From positions 5,394,001-5,458,000 of the forward strand of contig OX359246.1 in the NCBI GenBank assembly GCA_947179485.1: a stretch of 64,000 bases of DNA, read 5' to 3'. Origin of the DNA: Allacma fusca (lineage: Eukaryota > Arthropoda > Collembola > Symphypleona > Sminthuridae). Positions within the stretch are counted from its first letter, which is position 1. Each line of letters starts with the position of its first letter. The notes under the pieces are model-generated. The model worked only from the letters and a program-made list of their open reading frames with translations. It was not told where the DNA came from and made no database searches. Below, one piece after another: positions 16,677 to 61,230 of this stretch. A program made the translations under genes and the position numbers.

Positions 16677-17515
16677 CAGTGCTCGGCACGGGTATGGGTA
16701 ATACTCGGGTAAACGGGTACGGGTACGGGTATGGGTACTACACGGGTACCGATTTTGTGTACCCGATCAATTTCGGGTACTACCCGGGTACATTTTGTTC
16801 GACTTAAAATTTCGGGTACGGATACGGGTATGGGTACGGGTACAAGGATTTCAAAATGGGTATATACCCACCGGGTACGGGTATAATGGGGTCATTTACT
16901 CATACCCACGACCATTGTACTCGAATATTCGGATACTTTGAGAATTGAGACATTGTGATGAATTTCATACCATCATGCCCATACTTTGGAAACTTTTGTC
17001 CGTATTTTTAGTGTTTCTGAATACATATAGCTTAATGTTAATACTCTTTTAACCTTACAAACAACATACAATAAATGTATTTTAGACTGTAGCTAACATA
17101 TATGCTTTTAGGGAAACATGAATTTCTACTAGTCTAGTTTTTCTACTCTTCAATGAAAATATACAATATCAAATACAGCTCTAGCTAGTCAAAATTACAC
17201 ACTAAGGTATCATGCGTTATTGTACATAACGTACTATACACTGCATTTAGAGAAATCTGGATATAAAGTACCCGAGTACGAGTACGGGTACTACACTGTG
17301 ATACCCGAGTATGGGTTTTCGAGTATTTTTCGGGTACGGGTACAATGCGGGTGCAGGTACATGGTTTGAGATTACATTACGGGTACGGGTATGAAAAATT
17401 TGTACCCGGATACTCGGGTATGGGTACGGGTATAGATACCAGACATTGCAATACCCGCACTTCGGGTACGGATACGGGTACGGGTACCGATTTTTCGTAC
17501 CCGTGCCGAGCACTG
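16677..17515. mobile_element. hAT MITE, GGGTAC word family, copy 1
   Basis: The tips are CAGTGCTCGGCACGGGTA and its reverse complement, flanked by the 8-bp duplication ACACTGTA (16669-16676 and 17516-17523). Both ends are packed with GGGTAC/GGGTAT words. The paralogous site near 34668 (CCTGTACACTACAG) is empty. There is no internal gene; apparent Tyr-Pro-Tyr-Pro ORFs are just the repeats translated. Confidence 0.9.
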
Positions 17516-18561
17516 ACACTGTATTTGACAAAATTTACAAAATTTGCCGTTTAAATCCTCTCAAGCAATGGACAAGTGGAACTGACCCATTTGGATTCCA
17601 CAAAGACGCACAGATTTCACTGTTTGACGCACCACCAATTAAAAATGTTCTATGTTTTGCAAATTGTTTGATGCCAATATAATGGTTTTCTTCAGGCTTT
17701 AAATTTTCTCTGGGGTGCAAAAATTCTCAAAAATACATGGTCCGTAATGCAGTATTTACATCGGCTGCTATTAGTAACTCTAACAGAACCAGTAATGGAC
17801 TCACTCGGAAAATTTTAATCGCCAAGAAAGCACAAAGGATAACTGGCGGTCCTTTGAATTTCTTAAATAAATTCACGAATTAGGATTGGTCATCAGAGAT
17901 GTTATCAAGTTAAATACTATCATGTAAAATTAATAATTAACTTCTGAGCTGCCATTTCGGTCTTTACGATATAAGAAACACTTTCAAAACATTTGGTGAA
18001 ACCGAAGTGTATACACGAAAACCAGAAGGAAAATAATGAATATCTCTTGCATCGTGCAATGCTGAATTTAGCGCTCAAATGTGAATTTTTGGAAAGTAGC
18101 AAGCTAAATAACTTCTCAGGGAACAGTGCTGCCCATTCACTTTCTAGTCTAGTCAATTCTAGTCCACCACGTACACAAGCTGTACTATTCTATTCCTATT
18201 CTATTCATATCTGTGACTTGGCTATTCTAGTCTATTCCTATTCCCTCCAAGTTAAAAAAATCCTAGTCTATTCCAAGTCTATTCACCTATTCATTATACA
18301 CCACAACCAAAAGCAGCTTCAACGAATGTAACGTTGCTGAGAAAGGAAAACTGCGTTTCTTTGAGTTTCCTTGTACAAATCGAAAGGAACTTGCATCACG
18401 CGTGTTAGGTACACTCTTAAAGCATCATTATTACCCAGGTAGCTGAATTGGAAACAGCACTAACAATAAGCTGATAGTTCTGAATCGGAAGTCTGGTTTT
18501 TGAAGGAAGTAAACTTAGAATATTTAACTGAAGTTTTTTCGATGAGCCTGAGATCGTTGAA

Positions 18562-19650
18562 GCAGAGCTTCTACCGGGGACTGGGACGTTCCGTCGGGAC
18601 ACTGGACGGACCGGGACGGGACGACACCTTTCCCCATTAAATTTGGGACGGGCGCAAAAAAAATTGTTCCCATTATATTCGGGACGGGACCGGGACAAGA
18701 AAATTGTCCCCATTGTATTCGGGGCGGGACATGCTTTTTGGTAGTATGTATAACGGGACGGGACGAGCAAGCATAGCAGAACATGGATAACATTCCGGCT
18801 TTTAATGCTCATGAGTAAACTATTCTGTGAGCACTATTTCCCCAACTGTTAAACATTCGGTTTTTGGGTTGTAGAAAATGAAGCTTATTGCTCAAAAAAT
18901 TACTGGTACTTCATAATGGTGTTATGATTAGGATTGTTAGATTTTGACATTATTACGAATAATGACAAGTTATATATAATTATATATATATATATATATA
19001 TTTACAATCATAATTGAACGTAAGTAACCATATACATTATTTGAAAAGGGATTCGAAACTTGAGTGTTGGACTAATTTTGGTGACCGAAATAGAACAGGA
19101 ATAGAATAGTAATAATTGTTGAAATATGGGCCATACATGTACAAAGGGCATACCAAAGTTACTTTTGACCCTCCCTTGGAAAAATCAGAAAATTTTAACC
19201 CCTGGCTCAACCTGAGCCCGGGCCAGGGGTTTCATTTTTTTGGGATTTTGACCCTTCTTGGAAAACACTCACGACTTGTACATGTATGAATATGGCTGTA
19301 ATTTATGCTGCCTTAAGGAGAAATCTTGGAACTACGATTCTATAAATGTATTTTTTATGTTTCTGGTACGAATATGTTTTGTGTGAATTTTTCCTCATGT
19401 TCCGAGTTTCGGTATGGGAATGTCGACAAGTGTTTTTAGGAATTATCTGGACGGGACTGGTATTTTGTTCATATGCCCCGATTTTCGGGACCGGGGACAA
19501 CGTTTTTTTAAACTTTTGGGAACGGGACGGGGATATGGTTTTTTTTCACCGTGTCCCGATTGTCTGGACGGGACTGGGGACAAAGGTTTTGAAAAAATAT
19601 CCAGACGGGACGGGGACGGGACAGGAATTTTGTCCCCAATAGAAGCTCTA
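18562..19650. mobile_element. Nested hAT MITE, GGGAC word family
   Basis: The tips pair as GCAGAGCTTCTA and TAGAAGCTCTA. The direct repeat CGTTGAA flanks both sides (18555-18561 and 19651-19657), with an eighth base mismatched. Both ends are runs of GGGACGGGAC and CGGGACC. It lies inside the TAGTC-word element. Confidence 0.75.
19134..19289. mobile_element. Small palindromic MITE
   Basis: CATACATGTACAA at the left and TTGTACATGTATG at the right enclose about 130 bases that themselves show the pairs TTGACCC/GGGTCAA-like and a GAGCCCGGGCC centre. AATATGG occurs just outside both ends. It is nested two levels deep. Confidence 0.5.
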
Positions 19651-20126
19651 CGTTGAAATACTGGGAGTAGAACCTTGTTCCATGACAAGGTTTGGTTCAT
19701 CCGGCTGTGTCTTGGGATCTACGTTACTAAATTTTTTCGTCTTTATGGTTTTAAAAAATTCAACGGATGATTGCTAAGCTCAGATCTTTTTTGAAAATTA
19801 CTGCTGGCGTGCAAGAAGCTGATGTGGTTTTAATGGCGATTGGCGACAGATCAGCTTTAATCGTGAAATACGTTTTGCGAATGTGGGGAGATTTCTCCCC
19901 GTTTTGGGGGGATATTAATATTAAAAATCTTGTCTTTTGTTACAGCCACACATCAGTTTTGAAATGCCCGAACTCCGATCGTGTAACGAAAATCTAGTTG
20001 TTTGTTAAAGTTCTGGTTAAATCACAGGATGTAAGGGGATCCTGATGAAACTTGGATAAATTGGTAATAAGGATAATTTGGTCAAAAGTGCTTTAATAAA
20101 CGCTAAGTATTTAACGAAATGGCAAG

Positions 20127-20999
20127 TAAAGGCGTGGCCCGCAGGCCGTTCCCAAACCCAACCCGATTGTTACCCGCAAACACGTAACCCGAACCCGCCC
20201 GACCCGAAATTCAACCTATGTAACATCGGCCCGCCCCGTCCAGGCCGAAATTGTTTAGGCCCGCGCCAGACCGCAGCCCGCCGGGTTTCAGCTGACACGG
20301 CCCGACCCAGCTTGCGGGACCCGCGGGGGCCCGCAAATGTTTAGCGAAACGCTATCTGATGCGCTTCTCGGTCGGTCTGCAGTACTTTTAATTCGATTCC
20401 TGAATCACCCTCCTGTCTAAAAAGGGGGTATACCGTAGAAATTGAAAAATAAATATTTTCCAAACCTTTTAAATAATTGTAGCTGGTTTCATTTTTAATT
20501 CATGTCATATTATGTTTTGATATATATATTGTCATTTTCATCGTTAACTAATTGTAAGAAACTGTGATAAGAAATTCGACATGCTTTTGAGTTCAGAGTA
20601 GCAACATGAAAACGTTACAAGTCACATCCACAGCACGATAAGCGCGAAACACGATGAAGCAGAAACTGTAATAGCAAACTGTTACAAAGGCACAAACATG
20701 TGAGCTCAAATGGACGCAAACCAGATAACTCTACTGGGAAAATCCGAAATCTGGAAATTTAAACGTTTTGCGGGTTGCTTGCGGGCCCAAAGTATATTTA
20801 AGTCCAGCCCGAACCCGCCCGCAACCCGCATTATGTGCATAAAGTACAACCCGACCCAGCCCGTTGAAATACTGTAAAAACCCAGCCCGATCCGTAACTT
20901 GCAACATGACAAAGCACTAAACCCAAACCTGCCCATAACCCGCACGGGCGGGTCGGGCCTAAGCCCGACCCGAATTTTTACCCGCGGGCCACGCCTTTA
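20127..20999. mobile_element. Nested hAT MITE, CCCGA word family
   Basis: The tips are TAAAGGCGTGGCCCGC and GCGGGCCACGCCTTTA with the exact 8-bp duplication ATGGCAAG (20119-20126 and 21000-21007). The ends are dense in CCCGACCCG/CGGGTTCGGG words, a GC-rich island in an AT-rich region. No gene inside. Confidence 0.9.
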
Positions 21000-21462
21000 A
21001 TGGCAAGTGTGAGAAGAATTTTCATACAAAAAGAAATAGTACAGCATCGAAATATTATTCTGACATACATTACATAAGTAGGCAGAACTGACAAAATAGG
21101 AAACGGGTTCCTACTTGATAAACGCAAATTTTAGTCGTATGTTTGATTGTGCCCATAGTGCAGTTGAAAGGCTCACAATCCTCCTTAGACGAGGGAATAG
21201 TGCTATCGCACTAGTCAATTCTAGTCTATTCCCTCTATGTTAACATTCTAACTATTCTAGTCTATTCTATTCCTTTTGAATTTGCAGCAAGGCTATTCAA
21301 GTCTAGTCTATTCAATTTGCTCCTACATCTGGGCTATTCTATTCAATTCCCTAGTTTCCTAGTCTAGTCGGACTAGACTAGGGCAGCACTGTCAGGGAAA
21401 ACATTAAGTAGCCTTATGTGTGACCTTTTCTTCGTGGACAATTTGGGGCGGGATAGACGTGA

Positions 21463-24179: not shown

Positions 24180-25024
24180 TTGAAAAGGGAGAACGAAAGT
24201 GGTTGTTCCGAAAACTCAAATTCATTTATTGAGTGTCACTTGGAGTAGTCATTTGGTACTTCCTGAAAATTTTGCTTAAGCTAAACTTTACAGTATTTTA
24301 AATAAATATGGGAGGAAAGATTTGGGTACAATATTTGTTCTCGAACGAAAGGTGAATCGAGAACACTTATTCACACGGACTTCTTATTGAATTCAAAGTC
24401 AACACTGACGAAGGAAGTGCAAATTTACATTAATTTCAAAATTCCATTTGATTAACATCAGTAACAGAGTTCTGAAAACAAATACAAACAATAACTAACC
24501 ATGATATTTTTGGTTGCATCTATTTGTTCACCAGGCAGAGTATTGCAGAGTCATACCGCTGAGAATTGCATGAGTTCTTTATCATCTCTTGACTCGACAT
24601 TTAAAATATTTGTAGTCTATTGATTTTCGATCGCAACGCATCCCATTCTTTGGCAAATATTCGCGTATAGGTAGATGTACTAATTGCGTATAATTTCATG
24701 TAAAGCAGTCAGGTCAGATGTGCTCAGATCATAACTCTCCCGTGTAGAAATGTTCATTCCGGAACTATGATAATACTCGGCTAAGTACGATTGCAGAGTT
24801 TTGAAAATACTAGCTAGTATGAATTGTTTTCATGGAATTTAGGAAAATTGCGCTATTTGGATTTGTTCTAAAGTTTTACAAAATTTTGGAATTACAAAAA
24901 TGTTTTATAACCCCTAAACGTTTACCGAATAGACGCCTGAATTGTATTTGCGATGGTTTTATACTGAGCGAGTCAAAAGATTTGGCGCTCGGACGGGACA
25001 TGCGACGGACACACCAAATTCATA
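24180..25024. other. 5' flank of IR1
   Basis: Paralogous to about 39250-41090 upstream of IR2, with stretches such as the GTGCTCAGATCATAACTCT block shared. It probably includes the IR promoter, but I cannot place a TATA box or start site with confidence. Confidence 0.4.
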
Positions 25025-25032
25025 GTATCTGT

Positions 25033-25869
25033 TAGGAATGGGACTGTTCTGGTCCGGACCAGAAATTTTGGTCCATTCTGGTCTGTTCCCTGGTCTGTTC
25101 CCTGGTTACGAAAGGACCAAATGTATCTGGTCCAAGAACCTTGATAGACCAATTAAACCTGGTCCAGCTCAACGAACAGACCAGAATGTTTGGTCATTTG
25201 TTTGGCCCAGACCATTTGGAACGGTCCAGCAAACATTTCAAATGGTCGGACCAGATTCGATAGATGACCATTTAAGTATTTCCAATTCCAGCTAATAGAA
25301 TAGCATTGCTAGATTGTACAGCATGATACGGTCGAGAGACAATACAATACATGCTGGATGACAAACAAAGGAGAGTTCTCATTCAACGTGCCGTGGAGAA
25401 CACCCTTGCCTCCTGGATGATACATTGTGTCCGCGAGACATTAATATTTAGTATTGGTTAGTAAGGAAAACACTTGTGAAAATTCCTGTTGTAAAACTAA
25501 TAGAAAATATTTAAAAATTACAATTTTCAGATTTTGCTGACAATTTTACACTTTGTTTCAAATAATCAAATAAATTATTCAAAGCATTATCTAAATTGTC
25601 AAATGCTTGTATGTTGTGATCGTATTATGAACCTATTCGGTCCTAGTGGTCTGGTCTGTTCTGTTCCGGTCTGGTCCGAGTTGTTTTGAGGAACAGAACA
25701 TATGTTCCTGTTCCAGCAATTTGTGCGGACCAGATGGTTCCGGTCCTACAGGCTAAAAGACCTTGTGGTCCTGGTCCTACACTGAGAACAAATAAAATGG
25801 TCTGGTCCAGGCTCAAGGACCAGACCATTCCAAGAAATCCTGGAACATTCCGGAACAGTCCCACTCCTA
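25033..25869. mobile_element. hAT MITE, TGGTCC word family
   Basis: The tips are TAGGAATGGGACTGTTC and the complement of GAACAGTCCCACTCCTA. The 8-bp flanks GTATCTGT and GTAACGGT agree at six positions. The ends are full of TGGTCC/GGACCA words. The paralogous site near 41107 (AGTATCACTTCGCTC) is empty. Remnants of a related word family lie near 44630-44730 and 51780-51900. Confidence 0.75.
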
Positions 25870-25898
25870 GTAACGGTTCGCTCGTCATTATTTTTGAG

Positions 25899-26585
25899 TA
25901 GTGCATCGCATGGGTTCAGGTCGCACCCGGGTATTTGGGTTCAGGTCCAGGTTCAGGCTCAGTATGGGTGCATGTATTTTGGACCCAATAATTTTGGGTC
26001 CTTTCTGGGTACAATATTTTATACCCGTGAAATTGGGTACAGGTTCAGGTTCAGGACCAGGTACAGAGAAAAACCCGTTTTGATTTTACCTGTCAGGACC
26101 AGGTGTAACACATGAAAGACCTGAACCTGATCACAAAAGACCTGAAATGTTTGGGTTCATTGATTGAAAGTTAAAGGTCGGAGAATTTCAAGCTTCCAAG
26201 ATGATTTCCATCGCAAAAGCAATGGCAGGGTGTCCCAGGAACCAGAGAACTTGCATTCCTATTCATTTTAAATATATTTTGTACTATTTGTACTTTTAAT
26301 ACAAGATAAACTTTTAAAAAAGTTCGGATTCTCGAGTACCCAAAAATGTTCAGGTCCGGTTCAAAAATACCCGGGTTCAGGTCGTCTTTTGGGTACTTTT
26401 TCGGGTTCAGGTACTAATCAGGTGCGGGTACTACAACAATGCATTTGGGCCAGGTTCAGGATCGAAAAATTTTAACCTGTTAAATGGGTACATTTTCAGG
26501 TACAGGTTCACACTTTTGAGGTACCCAAAGTTTGGGTCCAGGTTCAGGTACAGGTTCGACTGTTTTGAACCCATGCGATGCACTA
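25899..26585. mobile_element. hAT MITE, GGTTCAGG word family
   Basis: The tips are exact 20-bp inverted repeats, TAGTGCATCGCATGGGTTCA. The flanks TTTTTGAG and TGTTTGAG match at seven of eight bases. Both ends carry GGTTCAGGTTCAGG, GGGTAC and CAGGTAC words. No gene inside. Confidence 0.8.
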
Positions 26586-27155: not shown

Positions 27156-27180
27156 CTTGCTTGCTGCATACACCACCGGC

Positions 27181-27970
27181 TAGGGATGTATAAATCTCAA
27201 GTTTTTCAGTCAAAGTCGCAAAGAGTCCCATACTCCATCCGAATCAGTCAGTCAGTCAGTCAGCAAAACTAATCCAAGCAGTCACAGTCAGTCTCAGTCG
27301 CAATACTTTAAGTCAAAATCAGTCCGAGTCGTATATGCATGTATGCGACATCTAGCGATATGGTAAACATCGTTTTTTAAACCATTGGGTTTTGATGAGG
27401 ACATTCCGGAACCTTCATATTAAACAACTATTGGCAATTGTGTAAATTCCATTTTTTGTCCCGAACTCGAACTCGGGACATTCCAGCGGGGGACCTAAGT
27501 CCCAGGAATGCACAAAAATACATGCCAAAAATTTTGTGTAAATGTAAAAATGGGCACAATGCACAACGCCGATCAACTAGAATTATACGTACTCTGGAAT
27601 CGCTCATAAGCTATTGATATCTCCTTAGTGAATGATGTATTACCCTCGGCTGCTTCCGTCAAAAATTGACTCCCCCATACGCTCGAAAATCGCATCGCAA
27701 TGTTTTTCCATTGCGACAGCAAAGGATTTCTAGATGAGTGTATTTCTATCGCAATGGAAAAACATTGCGACACGATTTTCGCGCGCATAGGACATTTGGA
27801 CTGCTGGGATACCGAGTGAAATAGAGTCATTGGGAGTTTTTACGATCAGTCACAGTCAGTCAAAGTCTTTCACAAGTCTTAATTCTTCAGTCATATTCAG
27901 TCCAGTCGCATCAGTCTGACTGTATCACAGCAGTCTCTCAAAAGACTGCAGTCAAAATTATACTACCCTA
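27181..27970. mobile_element. hAT-like MITE, CAGTC word family
   Basis: The tips TAGGGATGTATAA and TTATACTACCCTA pair with mismatches. The ends contain tandem CAGTCAGTC and CAGTCACAGTC words. The flanks (CCACCGGC and ACCGCCTT) do not form a clean duplication. The middle has an inverted repeat at about 27693-27772 whose arms, TCGCAATGTTTTTCCATTG, face each other. Confidence 0.55.
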
Positions 27971-28893: not shown

Positions 28894-29802
28894 CATACTT
28901 GCAGCCGTTCAGTTCATAAAGTGGTGAACTGAACTGAACTAGCCCTTATTTTCATTGTTTTTGAATGAACTTGAACGAACTAGTTAAATGCAAAATTATG
29001 ATTGAATGAATTTGAATTGAACTTAGCAGAACTTATTATGAATGTGAACGAACGTTCGTTGTACGTTCAAGTAACACAAACTGAACTGAATTGAACTTAA
29101 GAGTCCAGGTTTGAATATAAACTTTTATATTCGTGAACGCAACACGAATATCAACCAAGTACATATAAACTGCATGACAATATATGTATTTTATAGTTAT
29201 AATCTCAAAAGCTAACACGCTGGCTTTTGACAACTCATTTGAATGACCTTAAATTACAAATCAAAAAAATATTTATTTACAAGCAAGCTGGTTTCTTATA
29301 TGTATTTAATAACGCATTTATTTGGCTTATCGTATGAGTTAAAACATTTAATAATTGTAAGCATATTTGCATGATTTATTAACTTGTTTACCAGAAAGCT
29401 CAAAATTATTACTGCTTTCACAACTCCAGTGTTTTGAAAGCAGTAATTTAATCAGCCATTTAGCCAAAAATACTTTTTTAGTCAAATTTCAAAGTCAGTT
29501 ATAAAAATCAAACTAAATGTCACTTAAATATATAATAAATGACTTGAACTAATTGGTTCGCTAATGACAGATAAAGCGAACTGAACTGAACGACCGAAAA
29601 GTATATAATGAATTGAATTGAACTTTTAAAAAATACTGCAAGGGTGAACTGAACTGAACGTAACGACTGGAAAGTACGCAGTGAATTGAACTGAACTACA
29701 ACAGGCTTTGGACAACGGGAACTGAACTTAACTGAACGGCACGAAAAATTTGGGGATGTGAATGGAACTGAATTTGAACTTTGGATCAAAACTGCAAGTA
29801 TG
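28894..29802. mobile_element. hAT MITE, GAACT word family, copy 1
   Basis: The tips are CATACTTGCAG and CTGCAAGTATG. The exact 8-bp duplication GTTCATAT lies at 28886-28893 and 29803-29810. The ends are GAACTGAACTGAAC runs. A reverse-oriented copy lies at 56544-58569. Confidence 0.9.
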
Positions 29803-29819
29803 GTTCATATGTCTTATAT

Positions 29820-30802: not shown

Positions 30803-31343
30803 TAGTGGTCGGACCAGTTCAGTCTGGTTCGCAAAATTCAGTTTAGTTCGGTTCACAAAGTGAACTGAATCGAAAATCAAAATTGCAGTTCAGTTAGCTT
30901 TTCTTCGGTTCAGTTCAGTCCAGTTTTCTCTGTGAACTGAACTGAACTGATTCCAAAACAGTTTAACGCGCCAGGTTAAAACTATAGCGCAAATAGTTTC
31001 CGTTTTGGTAAGTACAATATATATAATATATGTTTGTACATACACGCATACACACATATAAAATGTGTTCTTAGATTTGTATAATTATATAGCACGGCAA
31101 ATGCAACCGTCAGAAATGAGAAGTGCGTCATGACAGAAACAGGCTTTATTGTGCATGCATAAAAATCCGTTCCAACAATTCAGTTCAGTTCAGTTTTACG
31201 CTAAAACCGAACCATTCAGTTTGGTTTGTGTATCGAACTGAACCAAAATTTGTATGAACCAAACTGAACTGAACTGAACTGAACTGAACTGAACTGAACT
31301 GAACTGAAATTTTCAGTTTTGAACTGAACTGGTCCGACCACTA
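30803..31343. mobile_element. hAT MITE with TAGTGGTCGGACC tips and GTTCAG words
   Basis: The tips are TAGTGGTCGGACC and GGTCCGACCACTA. The exact 8-bp duplication CAGTAGAT is at 30795-30802 and 31344-31351. A perfect GAACT tandem run lies near 31262-31308. It shares its tips, but not its words, with the element at 42933-43432. Confidence 0.9.
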
Positions 31344-31407
31344 CAGTAGATATGAATATGGATAAATCCTTTAACCCAATATCAGGTAGTTCATTCGAAA
31401 TTAGATT

Positions 31408-34040
31408 TTATATCAAAAGTAAAGTACAAGTTCCTCAAATAGCAAAATCAATGAAAACGAGTACAGACTCCCTTTCTATTACATGAAAATTCCGGGAAAG
31501 GGTTACTACTGCTTAAAGTAATCCAGCGTAGCGTTCCATTTTAAGTGTGTGAATGTATCCACGCAGTGCTCGGCACGGGTACGAAAAATCGGTACCCGTA
31601 CCCGTATCCGTACCCGAAGTGCGGGTATTTCAATAACTGGTATCTATACCCGTACCCATACCCGAATATCCGGGTACAAATTTTTCGTACCCGTACCCGC
31701 AATGTTATCTCAATCCATGTACCTGTACCCGCATTGTACCCGTACCCGAAAATACTCGAAAATTGTACCCATACTCGGGTATCTCAGTGTCGTACCCGTA
31801 CTCGTACCCGGGTACTTTATCCAGATTTGTTTTAATGTAATACATAGTACGTTATATGTAATAATGTATGACACCTGAGTGGGTAATTTTGACTAGCTAG
31901 AGAGGTATTTGACATTATATACTTTATTGAAGAGTAGAGCGTTTTTGATTAGAAGTAAAATTATCCCCATTTGATTGTTTATGGGCTGATGGGCGAAGTA
32001 TTTTATAGCACCCAGTCCATATGTACATGCATTTTTGGCTTGGGACTTGGCGACTCGATTTTTCACTTCTTGATTTATTCGGCCTTTTACATTAATTTTC
32101 TCATCTCAGTAGCTCTGTGTACATGTTAATCATTAATATCTTGTTACAAATATCCGCCTTTTCCTAATCAACTACTAATTACAAAAAATATCTTGCCATC
32201 CAACTCATCGGAACTCTAATTTTTAAATTAATTGTGGCTAATATCAACCATGTTGAAATAATTGGAATACGTGGATATTGCTTAGAATCAATTTATTTGC
32301 CAAGCTTTCGAACTCAAACAGTGTTCATCTTCAGGGCTTAATTATGACTAACTATGTTATCCTTGTTTGATGTAGTATTTATAAAAGTTTTACAAATTAA
32401 TGGGATTAATTGTGGCTAATGAAGTATTCTAGAAGTCCTATTCGAAGAAACCTATTCTCTACTTCTATTTTGATATTATTCCTCGTCTGTTTATTAATTA
32501 TTCTTCCTAAAACCTGTTTCCATAAATATATATATTATAGATATAAATATATATTTTAGCAACACAGTCTGAAATACAGTTACTGCATGTTGTAAGGTTA
32601 AAAGGGTATTAACAATAAGCTATATGTATTCAGAATTACTAAAAATACCGACAGAATTTTCCAACGGAAGTTCCATTATTTTCATAAAATTCATCAAAAT
32701 GTCTCAAATCTCAACATATCCAAATACTCGGGTACAATGGTCGCGGGTACGGGTAAATGACACCATTATACCCGTACCCGGTGGGTATATACCCATTTTG
32801 AAATCCTTGTACCCGTACCCATACCCGTATCCGTACCCGAAATTTTGAGCCGACCAAAGTGTACCCGGGTAGTACCCGGAATTGTTCGGGTACACAAAAT
32901 CCGTACCCGGGTAGTACCCATACCCGTACCCATACCCGTTTACCCGAGTATTACCCATACCCGTGCCGAGCACTGTATCCACGTGTCCCGAAACCTTTCT
33001 CAAAGGTCACACCAAAGACCATCACAACAAAACTTCTATTTGCAAAAACAAATATTACCAATACGATGTTATCCGAGTAATGGAGAACAATAATACGACT
33101 GCAAAAAATTAGTACAGTAAGGGAAACGTTATTTAGCCAAGAAATGGTGACGCTGTAGCACATATTAAAAACATGAACAAGAACTTCCGCCTCGGGGAAA
33201 CATTTAACGCTGCGATCATAAATCAGAGGTATTTGGTGCTCCCGGTCATCCCGCTAAATTGAAATCATTTTTAGAACATCCTCGCTTAGTTTCTCTAGGA
33301 ACAGTACTACACTGGTTATAGCTAGTAAGCATTGCGTAGAAAAGTGGAAAAACCAAGCAGTTTCGTGCATCCACAGTATTAGAAACATCAGGAAATTTTG
33401 TAATGACTCCGAAAAAAGGTAGAAATGTAAAACTCTTTTGAAAAAAATTGGAACTAAAATGTTTAAAACAATTATTGTCATGAAACAAGTGTAATGGCAA
33501 AGGAAGGACACAATCAGTTCTTTAACAGACAACCTCTTCCATCTAGACTCATCTTGGCAATTTTTATGGCCGATTTATTTAGCTGTAAAATATTACACTT
33601 TTAAAAAACACGCAGAGTTGCAAGGACATCAATCAGTTTACATTTTTATATATCTGCAACGACCGACCTTTTTGATACAGTGCGCCATAGGCCCACTTAG
33701 CTTGAGCAGGAAACAATGAAATGAACAAAGTCAAGAAGATTTCTGAAGCTCTAACCCACGATGTCAAAATCCCTGGTGTCGTGAAAATCCCCACAGACAC
33801 GTACATAAATATACATCAGTGGGAGTGTCACAGAATACGTACTTTTGGAGGAGGCGTTAGTGCCGGATTCCATTATAAGGAACACTGCGTACATGAATCG
33901 TATTATCCCATTCGCTGAAATTATTTTACATATGCCCAAAATCCTTTTCCTACTGCCCATACTTTGGACTGCCTGATTAGGTCCAGGCAGGCTGATTTCA
34001 AACGAATTAAACTCAATTTTGATGACCATTTCAAGCATTT
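31408..34040 (-). pseudogene. Gustatory-receptor-like copy B, split by a transposon
   Basis: The C-terminal exon is cut in two: codons after the family ESLQNFLMFLILWMHE region continue to 32976 and resume at 31563 beyond a 1.4-kb hAT insertion. Exon 1 remnants (about 33690-34040) need at least two frameshifts to match copy C, one at TTAATTCGTTTGAAATC and one near 33805. The donor AAAAAG|GTCGGT and the acceptor remain recognisable. Clearly dead. Confidence 0.7.
31564..32975. mobile_element. hAT MITE, GGGTAC word family, copy 2
   Basis: Same 18-bp tips as 16677-17515 (CAGTGCTCGGCACGGGTA). The exact 8-bp duplication TATCCACG lies at 31556-31563 and 32976-32983. It is inserted into the C-terminal exon of GR-B. 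It contains a nested ~115-bp repeat (about 32230-32345) that recurs at 59344-59463. Confidence 0.92.
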
Positions 34041-35192: not shown

Positions 35193-36457
35193 TATAGCTC
35201 CTCACGGGTCGAGTAGTTATCCATACCGTACTCGTACTTGGAACCGTACTCGAATTGTCGGCCCGAATTCCCCCTTGACCCGGACTTGTTTCTTCAAGTA
35301 CGAGTAAAAAATCCTGTACTCGGAGTACGGTATTATATTTCTTATTTTTTTACCGAACTTGGACCGTACTTTCGAGTATAAAACGTTTATACCGACCGAC
35401 CCGTACTTGAACTCGTACTCGAACCGTACTCGAGTATCAAGTACACCGAAAAATTTTTTTAGACGTTTTGAAAAAGAGAGATAGACATAGAAAACAATTA
35501 GTAGATTCAAATAACAAGAATTTGTAACTGCAACTTACAAACAGCGTTTGCAATGAAAATTTTCTCCAACGAGATTAAAATACCGATGAACCAGGGTTGG
35601 CAAAAAAACGGCTTTTATCTATAAAGGCCAAGCCAGTGGCATGAAATGGTAACAACCGGTTTTTATTGGACAGTGGACTTATTTGGATAGTATTAATTAT
35701 AGCCATTTTATACCAAACTATACAACAGGTCCGGGCCGGTTAGAACCGGATTTTAACCAATAATAACCAGGCCATTTCTGACCACTTGGCAACCCTGTGT
35801 TCATGCATGCGTAATATTAGCCAAGCCGGTGGTACGTTTTGGTTAAAACCGGTTTTTATTGGACAGTGGATTTATTTGGATAATATTAATTACGACCATT
35901 TTATACCAACCCAAGCAATTTGACCAAGCCGGTAAGAACCGGATTTTAACCAATAACGGCCAGGCCATTTCTTGCCACTTGCCAACCCTGTCCATTACAT
36001 TTTACGGCTAGGGAAATACAAATAGTAACTACAGTAGTACTCAATTCGGAGATGTAACAATAACTTATGCTGTAGGTGTAACGTTTCATGATATTCGTAG
36101 TAATTTTGAATTTAACCGCTTTTCCTTTCTGCTTCGGAATAACAACTTTTTTGTAATCAGAAAATATGGATGTGAACTTTGTGCTGGAGAAAATTACTCG
36201 AGTATCAAATGCAAATCCAAGTACGGGTTCAAGTACTTTTAAATTAATACCCGAACTCGTACTCGTGCTTTGATTCAAGTACTTTGAACGTACTCGTACT
36301 CGCTCTGATACTCGTTAGAAATATACCCAAGTTCGAGTACGAAAACGGATACTCGACCGACGAGTACAAGTACCAATATAAGTTGATACCGTACTCGACC
36401 CGTACTCGTACTCGAACTCGAAACTCGAGTATCTACTCGTACTCGTGAGGAGCTATA
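35193..36457. mobile_element. hAT MITE, CTCGTA word family
   Basis: The tips are TATAGCTCCTCACG and CGTGAGGAGCTATA, with the 8-bp duplication ATGCTGAA (35185-35192 and 36458-36465). The ends are runs of ACTCGTACTCG and GAGTACGAGT. The paralogous site in U1 near 18060 has a single ATGCTGAA. Another element is nested at 35592-35990. Confidence 0.85.
35592..35990. mobile_element. Nested hAT-like element, internally duplicated
   Basis: It starts CAGGGTTGGCAA and ends TTGCCAACCCTG, a hAT-type tip. A further right tip (TTGGCAACCCTG) lies inside at 35797. Two units of roughly 190 bases share the CGGTTTTTATTGGACAGTGG and GGATTTTAACCAATAA blocks. Flanking duplications were not found. Confidence 0.6.
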
Positions 36458-42111: not shown

Positions 42112-43927
42112 TTAAATCAAAAGTAAAGTACAAGTTCCTCGAATAGCAAAATCAATGAAAACGAGAACAGACTCCCTTTCCATCACGTGAAATCCTCCTA
42201 CTCTGATACCTAATTTACCAATTGCCCTGATTCTCTTTTGAAGATATTCGCGCCCCGAGGAAGGACTACTGTTTAACGTAATCCAGCGTCGCAATTCCAT
42301 TTTAAGTGTATGCATGTGTCCAGGTATCCCGAAACCTTTCTCAAAGGTCACAGCAAACACAATCGCACCAGAACTACCAACTGCAAAGCCACAAATTACC
42401 AATACGATGTTCTCCGAGTAATGGAGAACAATTATACGACTGCAAAAAATTAGTGCAGTCAGGGAAACGACTTTAAGCCAAAAAATGGTGACGCAGTAGC
42501 ACATATTAAAAAAATTAACCAGAAGTTCCGTCTCGAGGCAAAATTTAACGCCGAGATCATAATTCTGAGGTACATGGTGCTCCCGGTCACTCCGCAAAAT
42601 TGAAATCATTTTTAGAACATCCTCGCTTAGTTTCTCTAAGAACAATACTACACTGGTTATAGCTATTAAGCATTGTATACAAAACAGGAAAAACCAAAGA
42701 GTCTCGTGCATCCATAGTATGAAAAACATTAGGGAATTCTGTAATGACTCCGGAAATAGGTAGAAAAGTAAAACTCTTTTGAAAAAAATCGGAGTTAAAA
42801 TGTTTAAAATAACTGTTAAGAAACAAGCGTAATGGCAAAGGAATGAAACCATCAGTTCTTTAACAGACAACCTCTTCCACCTAGGCACATCTTGGCAATT
42901 TTTATGTCCGATTTCCTTGGCTGTAAAAAATTTAGTGGTCGGACCAATTCAATTCAGAATTGGAAATTTTCGATTCGATTCGATTCAATTCAATTCGATT
43001 CAATAATATTTCGATTCGATTTGCAGCAAAGCCAAATCGAATGATTCGATTTGGGTATTGAACTGAATCGAATCATATTATGTGAATTGCAATTCAAACA
43101 ATTCATCAAAACCGCTTCGGCTGCGCACGGGTACTTTTTTCACGCATATTCAAAGTCCAAATACTACGTATACCACAACGTTTGTTATTTTAGCGTAGCT
43201 TTTACAATACCCTTTACAATATGTATACGACACTCCAGTAACATAAGTAAAATTTTGTATTTTCCCACTTGAATCGTTCGATTTACAATTCAATTCGATT
43301 CACTGAGTGAATTGAATCGAATTGAATTGCTTTGGGGCAAATTGAATCCAAAATCGGTTTTTCGATTCAATTCAAGCTTCAAATTGAATCAAATTGAAAA
43401 ATTCGAATCAAATTGAATCGATCCGACCACTAAAAAAATTACACTATTTTAATAAATTCGCAAAATTACAAGGTCATCGCTCAGTTTACATTTTTATAGA
43501 TGTACAGCGACCAACCTTTTTGATACACTTCATCAAAGGCCCTCTTAGAGGGAGGCGGATACACTGAATTAAACACAGTCACAAAGATATTCGAAGCCCT
43601 CATCCACGATGTCAGAATCACTGGTGTCGTGAAAATTCCCACAGTCACATACATCAAATGACAAATCAGTGGCAGTGACATAGAATAAGTAGTTTTGGAG
43701 GAGCCAATAGTGCCTGATTCGATTATAAGCCACACTGAGTACATGAATCGTATTATCCCATAAGCTAAAATTATTTTACAAGTCCAAATCTTTCTGCTAC
43801 TGGACATACTTAGGACTGCCCGATTAGGTCCAGGGAAGCTGATTTCAAATTTGATTAAATAAAATTTGGATGACCATTTCAAGCACTTGAAAAACACACG
43901 TAAATCCGATGTTGTTAGCATTTTCAC
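42112..43927 (-). CDS. Gustatory-receptor-like protein GR-C, intact, two exons, 406 aa
   Basis: Exon 1 is 43516-43927 (donor CAAAAAG|GTTGGT, phase 1). The intron is 42921-43515, and exon 2 is 42112-42920 (acceptor TTTTTTACAG). The join gives 407 codons. About seven hydrophobic segments are visible: KIILAYGIIRFMYSVWLII, ICHLMYVTVGIFTTPVIL, LMVSFLCHYACFLTVILNIL, a Trp/Phe-rich pair, ALIFCSRIIVL and the C-terminal VLVFIDFA region. Length and topology fit arthropod gustatory-receptor-like ligand-gated channels. The insect TYhhhhhQF tail is not seen, so the family call is tentative. The intron holds a 500-bp hAT; without it the intron would be about 87 nt, like copy A. The only copy with no lesion. 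Confidence 0.6.
42933..43432. mobile_element. hAT MITE with TAGTGGTCGGACC tips and GATTC words, in the GR-C intron
   Basis: The tips TAGTGGTCGGACC and ATCCGACCACTA lie within exact 8-bp duplications, AAAAAATT (42925-42932 and 43433-43440). On the sense strand the duplication supplies a new T-run next to the 3' splice acceptor, so splicing may survive. The words are GATTCGATTC and CAATTC, unlike the GTTCAG words of the same-tip element at 30803. Confidence 0.9.
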
Positions 43928-45640: not shown

Positions 45641-45759
45641 CAGAGATGTCCATTTGAAATCGCCTTCGTTCATCCTTCAGAAGGGTGACCGTGTCCAGCT
45701 ATAATCCTTCCTTCAGCCTTCAAAAAATATTTAAATGCCCTTCATGCGTTACCTTCCTT

Positions 45760-47035
45760 CAGTGCTGCGATCGGGTCAAGTAATTTCAAAACTTGACCAT
45801 GAACTTGACTTGACCACGAAACTTCAAGTAATTTTCAAGACATAACCTGAACTTGATAACTCGCGTTCGTGTAATTACTTGACTTGTCAAGTTCAAGTAA
45901 TCAAGTAACTTTTGTAAGACCCGAACTTGATCAAGTAGTTAAATTTCCAAACTTGACTTGAACTTGACTTGACCATGACTTGAACGCGACTTGAACTTGA
46001 TAATTCAAGTTAATTATCTCAAAAAATTAAACATGGCCACAATAACTTGTCGAACTTCCTGCAGCAAATTATTTCCTTCAGACTGAAAACCAAAATGCAT
46101 TCAGAAAATAATTTTACTGCTACTTTTTATTTAAAACCATTCGAGGACAACTTTGAGCGTATACTGAATACAGTAAAGTAAAAGTTCTATATATAAGGGG
46201 ACTATATAATTTATAAAGGAATTTCCCTTATACAAAACGTCTAAAGCATTGTGTAAATGAAAGTTGGTGTCAAACAAATGCATCCCTGATATCGATACAT
46301 TCCTTATAAGCTGAGCCCTTATAACGGACTTTCACTGTATATCTGACGAGTTTTACATGGTGTCAAGTTTTATTTAATGTTTATATATGTAAATATACAT
46401 ATACCTATTTGAGAATTACCAGTACTCTTAATTTAAAATTTAATAAACTAGTATTTACTTATTTATTAAACGCTTTTTGTAAAGAGCTATCCAAGCTCAA
46501 TTTATATTGGAATTTATTTACACAAGTTGAAACTAATAGTTCTAAGCAACAATATGAATTATCAAGATAATTCTTTCATTTCATGGAAATGCCGCTGCAA
46601 CAACTAACAATGAGCATGGCCTGGTAAACAAGACCTTTATAAAACGGACTCTGATTTTGATTTTTGTCCTTTGATTTATGACATGTGCAAACAAAATACC
46701 CTAAACACGACATGAAGTTGGATTGTGATTTTGAAATTCCTTCCGTCCTTTATGGCATGCGCAATCTAAAATTACTTGAACTTGACCATGAAATCTCAAG
46801 TTCATGGTCAAGTTTTTTCTTTCCATTACTTGACCCTGAACTTGACTTGAGATTCAAGTAAATTTCTCTTACTTGTACTTGAACCTGACTTGTCTTAGAA
46901 TGTCATGGTCAAGACGAGTACGTACTTGAACTTGACCCGAAAGATTCAAGTAAAAACATTGGCCTACTTGAACTTGACCCGAACTTGAACTTGACTTGAA
47001 AACTCAAGTATAACTTGAACTTGTCCGCAGCACTG
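45760..47035. mobile_element. Nested hAT MITE, CTTGAA word family, copy 1
   Basis: The tips are CAGTGCTGCG and CGCAGCACTG-like, with the exact 8-bp duplication CCTTCCTT (45752-45759 and 47036-47043). The ends are dense in CTTGAACTTGACTTG words. The interior contains a pogo-like MITE at 46171-46337. Confidence 0.88.
46171..46337. mobile_element. pogo-like MITE
   Basis: CAGTAAAGTAAAAGTTC at the left and GGACTTTCACTG at the right, each flanked by TA; inner TATAAGGGG/CCCTTATA words pair as well. 167 bp, third nesting level. Confidence 0.6.
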
Positions 47036-47759
47036 CCTTCCTTCTATGTTCATATATTTATCCCAAATCTTTTAAAACAAGTCACAAAGTCAGAGCTTTA
47101 AACTTCCAACTGCTTACCTCTGAAAAACTAATAATTAGTTTGTAATTAATTACATTATTTCAGATTATCCGTATGTATATACATATGTACAGCGAAGGGA
47201 ATAAAATGCTTACATGCTCCGGGTATCATTCTGCCATTGTGAGATAAATGTTTCTAGAATAACATTAAGCAGACCAGAATGTTTTTCAGTTGAGTAACGG
47301 TGTGCATACGTACATGGCTTTAGTTTCGGAAGGATTTCGCCTAAAATACAGTAGATGGGGTTGTAAGTTCCAACGGCGTTCGAAGGCTGTAAAATTAACA
47401 TGTTCCTTCACATTCCATTCTTTCTGCAAAGAGCAGAGGCCTTCGTTCATCCTTCGTTTCCTTTGCAGCCTTCCTTCCGTTCCCTTCATAATTGCCAAAG
47501 CTAACGCTTAATTCGTTCAAAGAAGCCTTCTTTGAAGGAAATCCTTCGAAGGATGGACACCTCTGCATGAGAGTGTAAGATTCCCAGGCCCTTGGAGACA
47601 GTAACGGTATCTGCACGCTGAGACATGATTAAACTTATCTGAACAAGTCTCAACAATAATGGGAAATGGAAACGGTTTACGTGTGTACATGTGTTAAAAG
47701 CTTCTTGCCATTGTACATACCTACATACATACATACATTTACGTAGTGCATATTATCAC

Positions 47760-54626: not shown

Positions 54627-54669
54627 TGGAACACATATTACTAAGTGTAAATAAACTCATTTCATTCAG

Positions 54670-56543: not shown

Positions 56544-56958
56544 CATACTTGCAGTTTTGGTCCAAAGTTCAAATTCAGTTCCATTCACATCCCCAAAATT
56601 TTCGTGCCGTTCAGTTAAGTTCAGTTCCAATTGTCCAAAGCCCGCCGTAGTTCAGTTCCATTCACAGCGTACTTTCCAGTAGTTACGTTCAGTTCAGTTC
56701 ACCCTTGAAGTATTTTTTCAAAGTTCAATTCAGTTCATTATATACTTTTTGGTCGTTCAGTTCAGTTCGCTTTATCTGTCATTAGCGAGCCAATTAGTTC
56801 AAGTCTCTTATGGTATATTTAAGTGGCATTTAGTTATATTTTTATAGCTGACTTTGAACTTTGACTAAAGCACGATTTTTCGCTAAATGAATGATTAGAT
56901 AACTACACTCAAATCTCCGGTGTTTTGAAAGCATTATTGACTTTGAGCTTTCTGGTAA

Positions 56959-58003
56959 CAGTGCTGCGCACAAGTTCAAGTAAACCATGAGTATTTTAAG
57001 TCATGGTCAAGTTCGGGTCATGGTCAAGTTAAAAAATAATTATAACTTGAGCATTCAAGTCATCGTCAGGAAATGTATAAACTTGAAAATGATACTTGAA
57101 GTCAAGTAAGCGTCATGGTCAGGTTAGAGAATATTACTTGAGTGTCAAGTCATGTTCATGGTCAAGTCTGATAATGTAAATACTTGACCATGAACTATGA
57201 GTATTTTATGTACAGATTCAAGTAAAATAAAGTTGCGCATGTCAAAGACACGGCGCATAAACTTTTAAAATAACATTTCGCAAATTATTGTTTTATTTTT
57301 CAACAAGTTTCAACCCATGCTCGGCAGGAAAATTTGACTGTAATTAAATTTTTTACCTGTTTTAACATTTGGCGTTAATAGCATTTGCTTCAATGAAAAA
57401 GATTCTATGATAAATCTTTTTCAGATGAAACTTCGTTTTATTAATAATTATCTTACATACTATTTACAATTTTGAGACCATGTGAAAACAAGATATTGAA
57501 TTAGTGTAACCATATACATCTATATATAATTATATATATGTAATTATATACAGTGAATTTCCTTTATAGTGGTTTCCTCTTGGACAGCATATCCTTTAGA
57601 TTAACATGGTTAAATATTCCCTTGTATTACATGTTTATTATGTAGTAGTAAAATACAATGGCATCCCCATACATGGGCAGGTATTTTGTCATCCCTTGGG
57701 AACCACACAAAGTACACACACATGTAGGAAATTCACTGTACATGAGCATATATATGTATTGTTCGGGTCAAGCCATGATCAAGCCATGGTCAAGTCATGG
57801 TCAAGTCAATTGCAATTTTAGTTGTACATGATCATGTTCAAGTGACGTAAAAAGTACTTGATTACTTGACCATGAAATTTCAAGTAATTACAAGAACATG
57901 AGTCGCCATGGTTCAAGATCGTATCAAAAAAAATACTTGACTTTCATGGCCAATTCAAGTTCATGGTCAAGTCTGGAATTTACTTGACTTGAGCGCAGCA
58001 CTG
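56959..58003. mobile_element. Nested hAT MITE, CTTGAA word family, copy 2
   Basis: The tips CAGTGCTGCGC and GCGCAGCACTG are flanked by CTGGTAA at 56952-56958 and 58004-58010. In the uninterrupted copy (29390 region, minus strand) the site reads TTTCTGGTAAACAAG once. The words are CAAGTTCAAGT and CATGGTCAAGT. Confidence 0.9.
57551..57738. mobile_element. pogo-like MITE, 188 bp
   Basis: CAGTGAATTTCCT at the left and AGGAAATTCACTG at the right, flanked by TA on both sides. Nested in the CTTGAA-word hAT, itself nested in the GAACT-word hAT. Confidence 0.75.
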
Positions 58004-58242
58004 CTGGTAAACGACCAATCTAAGAAAACCAAGCTATTTCAAGTTATTAAATTATGGAAATATGCTTAGTTTTATTGCGTGTTTTATTTAATACGATTTC
58101 GTCCAAAATGTGCCAAATATGCGTTATTAAATATATGATACCGGCTTGGTTGTAAATAACTATTTCTTTGATTTGTAATTTAATGTCATTGAAATGAATA
58201 GTCAAAAACCAGCGTGCAAGTTTTTGAGATTACAACTATAAC

Positions 58243-58252
58243 ATATATATAT

Positions 58253-58310
<58 letters not shown>
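58243..58310. repeat. (TA)n microsatellite
   Basis: An almost pure TA run of about 65 bases inside the GAACT-word hAT, absent from its other copy. A shorter TA run lies at about 18975-19002. Confidence 0.85.
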
Positions 58311-58779
58311 CATATTCGTGTTGTGTTCACGAATATAAAAGTTTATATTCAAACGTGGACTCTTAAGTTCAATTCAGTTCAGTTTGTGTTACTTGAACGT
58401 ACGATGAACGTTCGTTCACATTCATAATACGTTCTACTGAGTTCAATTCAAATTCATTCAATCAAAATTTTGCATTTAGCTAGTTCGTTCAAGTTCATTC
58501 AAAAACAATGAAAATTTGGGCAAGTTCAGTTCAGTTCACCACTTCATGAACTGAACGACTGCAAGTATGGTCTCAACTATTGCTAGGTTAAAATTTATTG
58601 CAACCTGAATGCTGAAAATATATTCATTGTTCATTGGGATACTCATCGTGAGTTACCAATTCAATTGTATTTCATAAGATATAGATAACACGTAGTCATT
58701 GAATATTTTATTTTGCAGATGACTTCGATATACGTAGGTAGCCAAAACTTTCATGCATAAATATATTCATATAATGCAT

Positions 58780-59760
58780 ATTATCACAAGGGTTACTAAA
58801 TTTTGAAAAATTTGGGTAGCTCTGAAACCCCCCTCCGCTTTTTTGTAGACGTTCCGGAGTGTATGCTTATTCTGCACACGGCTATATTAAGTATAATAAC
58901 CCTAATATTATATGATTTGGATAGATTATGAACAACTCGATATAAACCCTGAAGTAATTATTATAAGGTCAGAATCAAGTGCAAAACCTCGTTCGAGCTA
59001 TCGTAGTAACCCGGAATCAAATTTGGTGGTTTCAATTGACGGGCTTTTTCAAGGTTTAAATTGTGTATACTTTTCGTTAATAACAACCTAGCTTAAAAGT
59101 GTGTGAAAGAACAGTTTAAATAAGAAGATTTTTTCCATGTGGAAGTACAAATAAAGTTGCATTTCAAATACTCGCATTACAGTATTATCATTTATGCTCT
59201 TCATTTTAGCACCGCACTATTAAATAAGTCTAATTTTGGAACTGTTCTCGTACTACTACTAGGAGAGTAAAATTCGAGGGATATTCCAGATAAACTGAAG
59301 GATTAAGAATATTATTTCTTTTATCGTTATATTATTTATTATAGTCGTAATTAAGCCCTGAAGAAGAACAGTTTGAGTTCGAAAGCTAGGCAAATAAATT
59401 TTATTCTAAGAATAAGCAGTATCCACGTACTATTCGAATTATTTCAACCAGGTTGATATTATAACAATATTATATTGCATGAGGCAAAATAATATAAGGA
59501 ATGATTCAATCATTTCAATCTATCTCATGTAGAATCTAAAAAAGGCTCGTAGGTACATAAGCAAACAACAAAATACGAATCTGTATATCAGTGATTCGTG
59601 ATTCATTATTTAATTGCTGGAGGGTATTTACTTGCAAGCATATAATTTCTATTGTATTTACCAATCCAGGACCACTTATCTTGCAAGAATGCATTTGATT
59701 TAATATCGTTAAATATAGAATCAGTTCATATTGTTTATCAACTCTAACTTGTTTCTTATC
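58780..59760. repeat. Dispersed repeat R1, copy 3
   Basis: Matches 47760-48900 in order, with an extra insertion at about 59307-59470. The insertion includes the ~115-bp repeat also found at 32230-32345. Confidence 0.5.
59344..59463 (+). repeat. 115-bp repeat with a hammerhead-like core
   Basis: Contains CTGAAGA, then GAAC, a loop, GTTC, then GAAA. This fits the hammerhead core CUGANGA-stem II-GAAA. The second copy (32230-32345, minus strand) keeps the stem with a different loop. The U preceding the cleavage site is not evident, so activity is doubtful. It looks like a retroelement 3' fragment. Confidence 0.35.
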
Positions 59761-59887
59761 CATCCTTCTTCTTATTGAACTCGATCTGTCCGTTGATTTA
59801 AACTTTCGCGGCCTTGGCTTTACAATTCAAACCTTTGCGGCTCATTTCAATATATAGCCAAGCAAGTCGGTGGGATATACAGCAAGC

Positions 59888-61230
59888 CAAAGGTGTTCGC
59901 CTATCCTACATATAGGCCTATTTGTAGGCTATTTATAGGGTGGGAGGATTTTATTAAAGAGGCTTGTAGGCAAAATAGGGTGCAAGAATTTACACTTAAA
60001 ACCTAGCCTACAAAATAGGTAGGCTCAGCCTTCGTAGACTTATAGGCATATATGTAGGCTATTGAAGCATGTCATCTTCATTTCATGGCATATGGAATGG
60101 ACAAAATGAAACTTAAAGAATAGTCGGCGCCTGGTACTTGGATATTGTTTTATGGAGTGGTTCAAGCGTGAAAAGTACGTGTTATCTCGCCTTGATATGC
60201 GATGAAACCTCACCGAAATCAAAACTTCTAAATATTCGGTAAAGTGAGAACTTAAGGAAATCTTAAGTGTGACATCCCTTTTGACCATGGTTGTAAAATT
60301 TGCGTACTATTGTAAGGTATAAATACATAGTTGTAAGCAGTGTAGTTGTAAGAAGTGATTTTTGTCATGTAATAAAATTGTTATTAGTGTTAAAGGTCAG
60401 CTCTAGCTGCGACTAGAGCAGAGTAAAGAATCCCTGACGAGGGACTTCTCACGCTCCACTTTTGGACGCGTCTCATATTATGAAATGATGTATTGATGTA
60501 TGAATCACACACGACAGTGTTAAAGTGTGTGCAAATCTTATTTGAGAACTTCAGTCTTAGACTGAGAGTTATTCCTTTCTGTTTCATTTTTAGAATCCTC
60601 TGAGATTCCCCTTTTGTTCTATTTTAGTTTTCGAAGTTATTGTTGAAGTAATTATCATTTCGTTTTCAGTTTCATTTGAATAAATAATCAGCCTTCGGGT
60701 TATCTTATTCAATTATTGTGTGAATTATCTGAGTGTGATCTGTGAGGCTTTTATTAATTGCTTTCATCCAATTAATTACATTTTAGCTTGATTCATAACT
60801 AATCAAGTCTGGAATGTTACTCAAATGGAGTGACCACAGCTTGACCTTAATACTATTTCCGGTGTAAACCAAATCAAGATCCGTACTATTTTGCTCTTAG
60901 GGCTTTGGTCAAGGTGTCTAAGCTTAAGCTATTTTATTTCAACCCTATTTACTTGAAACAGGATTTTTAATTTATTAGAGTAGAAAGGTCTTAAATAGTC
61001 TGTCAGCTATGAAAAGAAAAACACATAAGATTTAGGAAGGGTGTAGAATTCGTTGAGCTAATTTTTTAGTGAAATGTAGGCTAATATGTAGGCTTGCTGG
61101 ACCCCATATAGGAAGGATGTAGGATAGGCTGATCTATTCGGCGGTTAAAATGTAGGCATATATGTAGGCCCGGTTCAAATTTTATAATTAGGAAGGATAT
61201 AGGATAGGCTGGGTCATTTGGACACCTTTG
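59888..61230. mobile_element. hAT MITE, TAGGCTA word family
   Basis: The tips are CAAAGGTGT and ACACCTTTG with the exact 8-bp duplication CAGCAAGC (59880-59887 and 61231-61238). The ends carry TAGGCTA, TATAGGC and GGATAGGCT words. The interior from 60268 starts TGTGACATCC with a TATA-like GGTATAAATA and an AATAAA, possibly a solo LTR, but no right end was proved. Confidence 0.88.

Follow-up and report, generated by a model that had tools for sequence, protein, structure and literature searches.

Transposons of the hAT type in the collembolan Allacma fusca carry many copies of a short, family-specific word behind their inverted tips, and in one family this word has been switched in concert, the same base position being exchanged in nearly every word, forward and reverse alike, with the TTC that follows largely retained. 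We analysed a 64,000-nt stretch of contig OX359246.1 (positions 5,394,001 to 5,458,000, or C8:5394001-5458000 in our numbering; hereafter the window) and searched the assembly around it, 392,743,791 bases in 91 contigs. The elements are hAT transposons, mostly short derivatives known as miniature inverted-repeat transposable elements (MITEs). We find hAT transposases in two families, words that are inherited with the element and mostly run one way, and a kinship of words that follows that of transposases. We consider it probable that each family's word is read multivalently by its own transposase and that concerted word replacement follows the base preference of that protein. Subterminal repeats of hAT elements are already known, and the switching of words seems to be the new part; a literature search returned no title or abstract opening on word dialects or word–transposase coevolution in hAT elements.

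Inherited words and their dialects

Between positions 16677 and 61230 the window holds 17 elements of hAT type, each carrying the word of its family at its two ends (Table 1; elements are named by their first position), delimited by a mechanical scan together with inspection by eye. The scan, which required inverted tips and an 8-bp duplication with at most one mismatch, found 15 pairs in the window, 11 of them word elements, and 4, 4, 3 and 1 pairs in four Markov-shuffled control windows. The target duplication is perfect in 12 of the 17, matches at seven positions in two and at six in one, and is not in register in two (2/8 in 27181 and 3/8 in 56959). Word cores of 4–6 letters, picked by hand and counted with their complements, number 5–24 in the outer 250 bp of each end, compared with 0–1.3 per 250 bp in element middles and 0.16–1.12 per 250 bp of window outside elements; the words reach 200–250 bp from the tips. 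The word-filled hAT elements of the initial annotation, with their mostly readable duplications, are therefore real. Its tally of at least fourteen words holds in so far as there are many, but they are not fourteen independent ones: the elements form about a dozen families, GAACT and GTTCAG are largely one word on two strands, and TAGGCTA occurs only four times in the window, the denser core of its element at 59888 being TAGG. Most listed tips conform to the CAGNG/TAGNG type, which we take to be a hAT trait; CATACTTGCAG, TATAGCTC and TAAAGG deviate from it.

Four families were followed through the genome by exact tip matches: 553+540 for GGGTAC (CAGTGCTCGGCACGGG; 1,093 in all, reversed control 0+0), 328+369 for TAGTGG (TAGTGGTCGGACCA; 697, control 2+0), 155+154 for CCTTC (CAGAGGTGTCCAT; 309, control 3+1) and 55+51 for GAACT (CATACTTGCAGTYGTTCAG; 106, control 0+0). 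The spaced pair GGGTACN8GGGTAC occurs 271+258 times, against 22+18 for its control. Twelve GGGTAC copies have a median pairwise identity of 0.92 (left) and 0.93 (right) over their word-filled ends; with gaps counted, word columns show 5.2% mismatches on the left and 4.7% on the right, and spacers 8.9% and 6.7%. Duplications of 8/8, differing in sequence from site to site, flank 9 of 10 GGGTAC copies, and 9 of 11 CCTTC copies likewise have 8/8 duplications (copy L119, whose coordinates were cut too short, was dropped). Because GGGTAC copies at different sites align through their word-filled ends, the words are inherited with the element: they arrived with it and did not grow later as microsatellites. 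The initial annotation had named post-insertion microsatellites, or words not shared among the copies of a family, as findings that would count against it; the words proved common to copies in the GGGTAC, CCTTC, GAACT and TAGTGG families. At C9:17700944-17707933 four GAACT-family tips, all pointing one way, follow each other at intervals of about 2.3 kb, apparently a tandem element array.

The TAGTGG family departs from a single word. We read 20 of the 697 matches to its tip, namely four paired elements and, from the top 18 entries of the list, 16 more; the dialect shares in this sample are not genome estimates. Three word dialects stand behind this one 14-bp tip: AGTTC in seven elements, the four pairs all among them; AATTC accompanied by some AGTTC in eight; and GATTC/AATTC in four. 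One element, L071, is mixed. Over the 200 bp that follow the tip, the counts in dialect a are 23 for AGTTC, 3 for AATTC, 23 for GAACT, 0 for GAATT and 8 for GAATC, and those in dialect b are, in the same order, 14, 75, 2, 26 and 13; forward and reverse words thus switch jointly. The layout is homologous between dialects at ends of the same type (0/300 block shuffles in all six pairs of L070, L071, L072 and L077), and L089 is, as expected, not homologous to the opposite end type.

Between L077 and L072, in an alignment that tolerates transitions, position 2 of the word changes from G to A at 9/9 sites in both orientations and position 1 from A to G at 6/9; TTC is unchanged at 26/27 places, and 47/122 spacer bases differ. 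Plain scoring gives position 2 switched at 7/9, with one site kept and one in a gap. Over eight pairs the position 2 switch is found at 9/9, 8/9, 9/9, 6/9, 7/9, 7/9, 6/6 and 3/4 sites. At the opposite end, relative to window element 42933, L089 is switched at 7/7 sites (TTC kept at 21/21) and L088 at 6/9. Window elements 30803 and 42933, annotated initially as separate GTTCAG and GATTC families, are switched relative to each other at 6/7 sites at one end (one gap; TTC 21/21) and at 9/12 at the other (two gaps); with homologous ends and switched words, they are therefore one family in two dialects. Of the initial proposal that word drift gives rise to new families, the part that words change is borne out by these AGTTC to RATTC switches. 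'One word, one transposase' is too strict a rule, for three dialects share a single tip and the word AGTTC/GAACT is found behind two different tips.

Transposases and word layout

For a PF05699 search of the genome, 150 of 860 candidates were scored, and we read 50 transposase loci, 30 of the matches plus 20 picked by distinct score, many of them near copies. At 30 of the 50, the top-ranking 5-mer in a 250-bp segment of the 3′ flank beats all 60 shuffles; at least three of these hot spots (L018, L023 and L050) belong, by our reading, to a neighbouring element. Six of 11 loci with upstream sequence were delimited, all with tips and words at both ends and 8/8 duplications (L011, 4,900 bp; L015, 3,791; L018, 3,574; L030, 5,125; L032, 3,339; L034, 4,452); the ends of L013, L023, L027, L028 and L033 were left undelimited. 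L015 agrees with the window CCTTC element in tip and word, and L034–L037 agree with the GAACT elements; these are the only window families for which a PF05699 carrier with the same tip and word was found. L061 shares its words with the TAGTC element, and its tip is related. In two GGGTAC elements of 3.3 kb and in L120, a TAGTGG element of 1.9 kb, inner open reading frames (ORFs) reach at most 102 aa; none of these was recognised by eye as a transposase, nor was a 146-aa ORF running out of L090. A tandem triplication elsewhere places three equal-score hAT transposase matches at exactly 9,813 bp spacing (C8:28181777-28201633).

The 542-bp MITE L108 retains one L015 end over 369 bp (95.7% identity) and the other over 166 bp (97.0%), and window element 28894 aligns to the two ends of L034, with 83.7% identity over 257 bp and 74.7% over 348 bp; on these alignments, the two are internal deletions of L015- and L034-type elements. 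Such derivations, together with the genome tip counts, mark these two as MITEs, that is, short non-coding derivatives in many copies. The hAT nature of the window elements is seen in the 8-bp duplications, the PF05699 carriers of the CCTTC and GAACT families and the subterminal repeats at both ends; hAT-like_RNase-H matched L032 only, under its cut-off (E 0.0011). KDZ (Zisupton-like) transposons also make 8-bp duplications, but the CCTTC and GAACT families carry PF05699 transposases.

Word likeness tracks transposase likeness. Among 20 transposases under 85% identity (190 pairs, right ends), protein identity correlates with 5-mer likeness (Spearman 0.40; 0/2000 permutations), and mean word cosine is 0.60 at 60–85% protein identity (8 pairs) and 0.13–0.20 in lower bands; the effect size is soft because hot spots were selected manually: L023, L050, L031, L066 and wordless loci were left out, and L018 was shifted inside its element. 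Close relatives show small word shifts: GAAGGA/GAAGGC, AAGGC/TAGGAAGG, CGGATA/GGTTCGG, and GAACT in L034 versus GAATT in L027. A zf-BED domain scores over its cut-off in the GAACT transposase (E 2.7e-7), and the domain lies upstream of the transposase matches L025, L027, L034–L037, L065 and L069 (150 of 327 candidates scored). This match, and the analogy with Hermes, Tgf2 and Kat1, makes a BED finger a likely reading head. No zf-BED was found in the N-terminal ORFs of the word elements L039, L041, L042, L045, L046 and L048, a negative weakened by introns, and L047 scores 13.3 bits, under the cut-off, again with introns possible. Of the initial suggestion that each word binds a different BED-finger transposase, the association of words with transposase lineages stands; the BED finger, which did not turn up for the majority of word families, is a candidate reader, and another N-terminal domain may serve in its place.

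Despite the inverted tips, the majority word strand is the same at both ends in 15 of the 17 window elements, although weakly so in 25033, 35193 and 56959, and the words are one-way in 10/10 GGGTAC and 11/11 CCTTC copies. Direct 6-mer sharing between the two ends beats shuffles (p ≤0.01) in 22 of 23 elements, L015 being the exception, and exceeds inverted sharing in 21. On average 78 direct 6-mers are shared by an element's own ends and 19 by ends of different families, with 16 of 450 cross-family pairs attaining the lowest own-end value. On the transposase sense strand, word regions are purine-rich in 18 of 19 cases.

Features of the window

Table 1 Word-filled elements in the window
Element	Position	Strand	Tip	Duplication	Remarks
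AAATGCCC	about 8821..15758				word at both ends; hAT-like ORF 9255-10343(-) inside
GGGTAC	16677..17515	+	CAGTGCTCGGCACGGGTA	ACACTGTA	tip 1,093x in genome
TAGTC/TATTC	18124..21391		CAGTGCTGCCC	TCAGGGAA	hosts 18563 and 20127; words as in transposase locus L061
GGGAC	18563..19650		CAGAGCTTCTA/TAGAGCTTCTA	7/8	nested in 18124
CCCGA	20127..20999		TAAAGGCGTGGCCCGC	ATGGCAAG	nested in 18124
TGGTCC	25033..25869		TAGGAATGGGACTG/TAGGAGTGGGACTG	6/8	
GTTCAGG	25899..26585		TAGTGCATCGCATGGGTTCA	7/8	
CAGTC	27181..27970		TAGGGATGTATAA/TAGGGTAGTATAA	none in register	
GAACT	28894..29802	+	CATACTTGCAG	GTTCATAT	internal deletion of L034-type element
GTTCAG (AGTTC) dialect	30803..31343		TAGTGGTCGGACCA family	CAGTAGAT	
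GGGTAC, second	31564..32975	-		TATCCACG	reverse orientation to first
CTCGTA	35193..36457		TATAGCTCCTCACG	ATGCTGAA	
GATTC/AATTC dialect	42933..43432		TAGTGGTCGG family	AAAAAATT	duplication is simple sequence
CCTTC (GAAGG)	45641..47565	-	CAGAGATGTCCAT/CAGAGGTGTCCAT	CATGAGAG	ends match autonomous L015; hosts 45760
CTTGAA	45760..47035		CAGTGCTGCG	CCTTCCTT	nested in 45641
GAACT, second	56544..58569	-		GTCTCAAC	hosts 56959
CTTGAA, second	56959..58003		CAGTGCTGCGC		nested in 56544; 7-bp CTGGTAA directly adjoins both ends
TAGG/TAGGC	59888..61230		CAAAGGTGT	CAGCAAGC	

The AAATGCCC element, which the initial annotation listed with the others, does have its word at both ends, but it lies outside 16677-61230; a clean duplication was looked for around it and not found. 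Its inner ORF has 55 genome matches, and comparison with PDB and Pfam gave nothing useful. A paralogue, L121 (1252-4560), is one 1,103-aa open frame with hAT-like motifs by eye and no Pfam match; AAATGCCC occurs just once in 7 kb at this intact paralogue, and the ORF was rejected as carrier of that word. The CTCGTA element contains a further repeat (35593-35990) whose ends are of CAGGGTTGGCAA type and whose units are ACCGGTTTTTATTGG, and small repeats with AGTGAATTTCCT ends occur at 6793-6920, with a 7/8 duplication, and at 57551-57741.

Two near-identical long minus-strand ORFs (22233-24215 and 37301-39289) resemble insect ionotropic receptors, judged by eye; Pfam gave no match for 23097-24215 and 37301-39289. 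Four related minus-strand ORFs with a common final stretch (4486-4962, 42112-42948, 49636-50346 and 63408-63803) we take to be gustatory-receptor-like, with no Pfam match for the first two. Two ORFs of 206 and 426 aa in 52524-54626, also without a Pfam match, presumably resemble the protein of another DNA transposon. A 363-aa ORF at 1373-2464 contains a BTB/POZ domain (E 1.2e-6), and a tRNA-Ile gene with anticodon AAT lies at 15949-16022 (-).

What reads the words

The concerted switch is most simply explained by a multivalent protein that recognises a specific sequence; as words follow transposases, this reader is most likely the transposase. Binding of many copies at once would let the transposase find and pair the two ends, with the tip as the cut site; running mostly one way, the words would have opposite sense relative to the tip at the two ends and make these unequal. 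Were a transposase lineage to shift its base preference, only elements with changed words would keep moving, and selection of this kind would leave one word position replaced in all copies and both orientations, the remainder being retained.

The accessible parts of four papers describe hAT transposases that bind such subterminal repeats (PMC10368747, PMC3260210, PMC4763223, PMC4890040). Hermes of the house fly has a BED domain and AAG(T/C) repeats, with 17 + 14 short sites at its two ends, antisense on the left (STR2-7) and sense on the right (STR1-5); it resembles the window elements in its 8-bp duplication and, as we understand that text, in sites that are one-way if read tip-inward, but is one element with one word (PMC10368747). 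Maize Ac/Ds repeats the transposase-bound hexamer AAACGG in its outer 200 bp and has short non-autonomous relatives with the same tip, but a single word per family, relatives with too few words being immobile or having other ends (PMC3260210). Kat1 of Kluyveromyces has repeated AATTCA/TGAATT between its ends, the letters of our AATTC dialect, with polarity differing from end to end; it is, however, a domesticated single yeast locus, and the accessible text reports no dialects (PMC4763223). In Tgf2/Tol2, 17 + 18 subterminal repeats per end are termed a defining hAT feature and an N-terminal zinc finger is required for binding, but there is one family with one repeat (PMC4890040). Coral MITEs (PMC2872659) were discarded as a match, being described there as of TTAA type.

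Several observations weigh against reading by the transposase. In the accessible account of Hermes, transposition suffered little when putative inner sites were mutated, the right end lacks BED-domain contact, elements with two left ends are inactive and restoring unequal sites does not rescue them (PMC10368747). In our own data, 20 of the 50 transposase loci have no word above shuffles, among the BED-finger loci L025 and L069 have none, no transposase was found for the word-switching TAGTGG family, and the switch is less complete in other dialect pairs (3/4 to 8/9). The one-way exceptions, 30803 and 42933, are members of that same family, and inverted 6-mer sharing exceeds shuffles in 10 of 23 elements, mostly those with near-palindromic words or of the TAGTGG family. 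Two things keep us from rating transposase reading higher than probable: the Hermes results, and transposases that have a BED finger but no word.

Other origins of the words and dialects fare worse. A number of arrays, CAGTCAGTCAGTC and GAACTGAACT among them, consist of plain tandem repeats, but microsatellite growth after insertion is contradicted in the GGGTAC, CCTTC, GAACT and TAGTGG families by a word layout common to copies at different sites and by full-length elements with the same words at both ends; we reject it as sole cause wherever several copies were compared and find it scarcely credible in general. A bias towards C to T/G to A transitions is also very improbable: the L077–L072 word changes comprise 16 transitions and no transversions in an alignment that tolerates transitions, and spacers show 28 against 19, but the TTC bases of these words are unchanged at 26 of 27 places and the position 1 change from A to G, at six of nine sites, goes in the opposite direction. 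Unselected array turnover, in which slippage or gene conversion between repeats spreads a chance variant, has more to recommend it, with arrays that are partly tandem and copy numbers that differ among copies of one dialect; we nevertheless think it unlikely, as word and spacer layout are homologous across dialects and the scattered words in reverse orientation show the same change as the forward ones, and the mixed element L071 may be an intermediate of the kind that counts against it.

Host proteins that bend or silence DNA, or transcription factors, are a real rival to the transposase as reader. The words extend 200–250 bp from the tips, and the Hermes authors, in the accessible text, suggest a cellular factor for inner end sequences, beyond the first 50 bp (PMC10368747); but families in one cell differ in word, where one host factor would give one word, and words track transposase kinship, so that a host reader seems rather improbable to us. 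The one-way layout, for its part, might avoid long inverted repeats (hairpins and double-stranded RNA) and not serve an unequal transpososome: mirror-ordered words would form long complementary arms, and the purine richness of the sense strand points the same way. The TAGTGG family, however, has words both ways and yet 697 tip matches, and we doubt that hairpin avoidance accounts for the layout.

If the transposase is the reader, these families document, as few natural cases do, how a DNA-binding protein and its sites change jointly, across many sites per element, in both orientations and at both ends. Tentatively, and with slightly more doubt than confidence, we propose that hAT lineages have private address codes in which the word is rewritten element-wide behind a fixed tip, so that MITEs and transposases split into non-cooperating dialects within one genome, a form of transposon speciation by protein–DNA coevolution. 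This splitting of one family into two becomes testable on the three dialects that share a tip and on transposase pairs, L034 and L027 for example, with words that differ by the same base, and it may yield transposon tools without cross-reaction.

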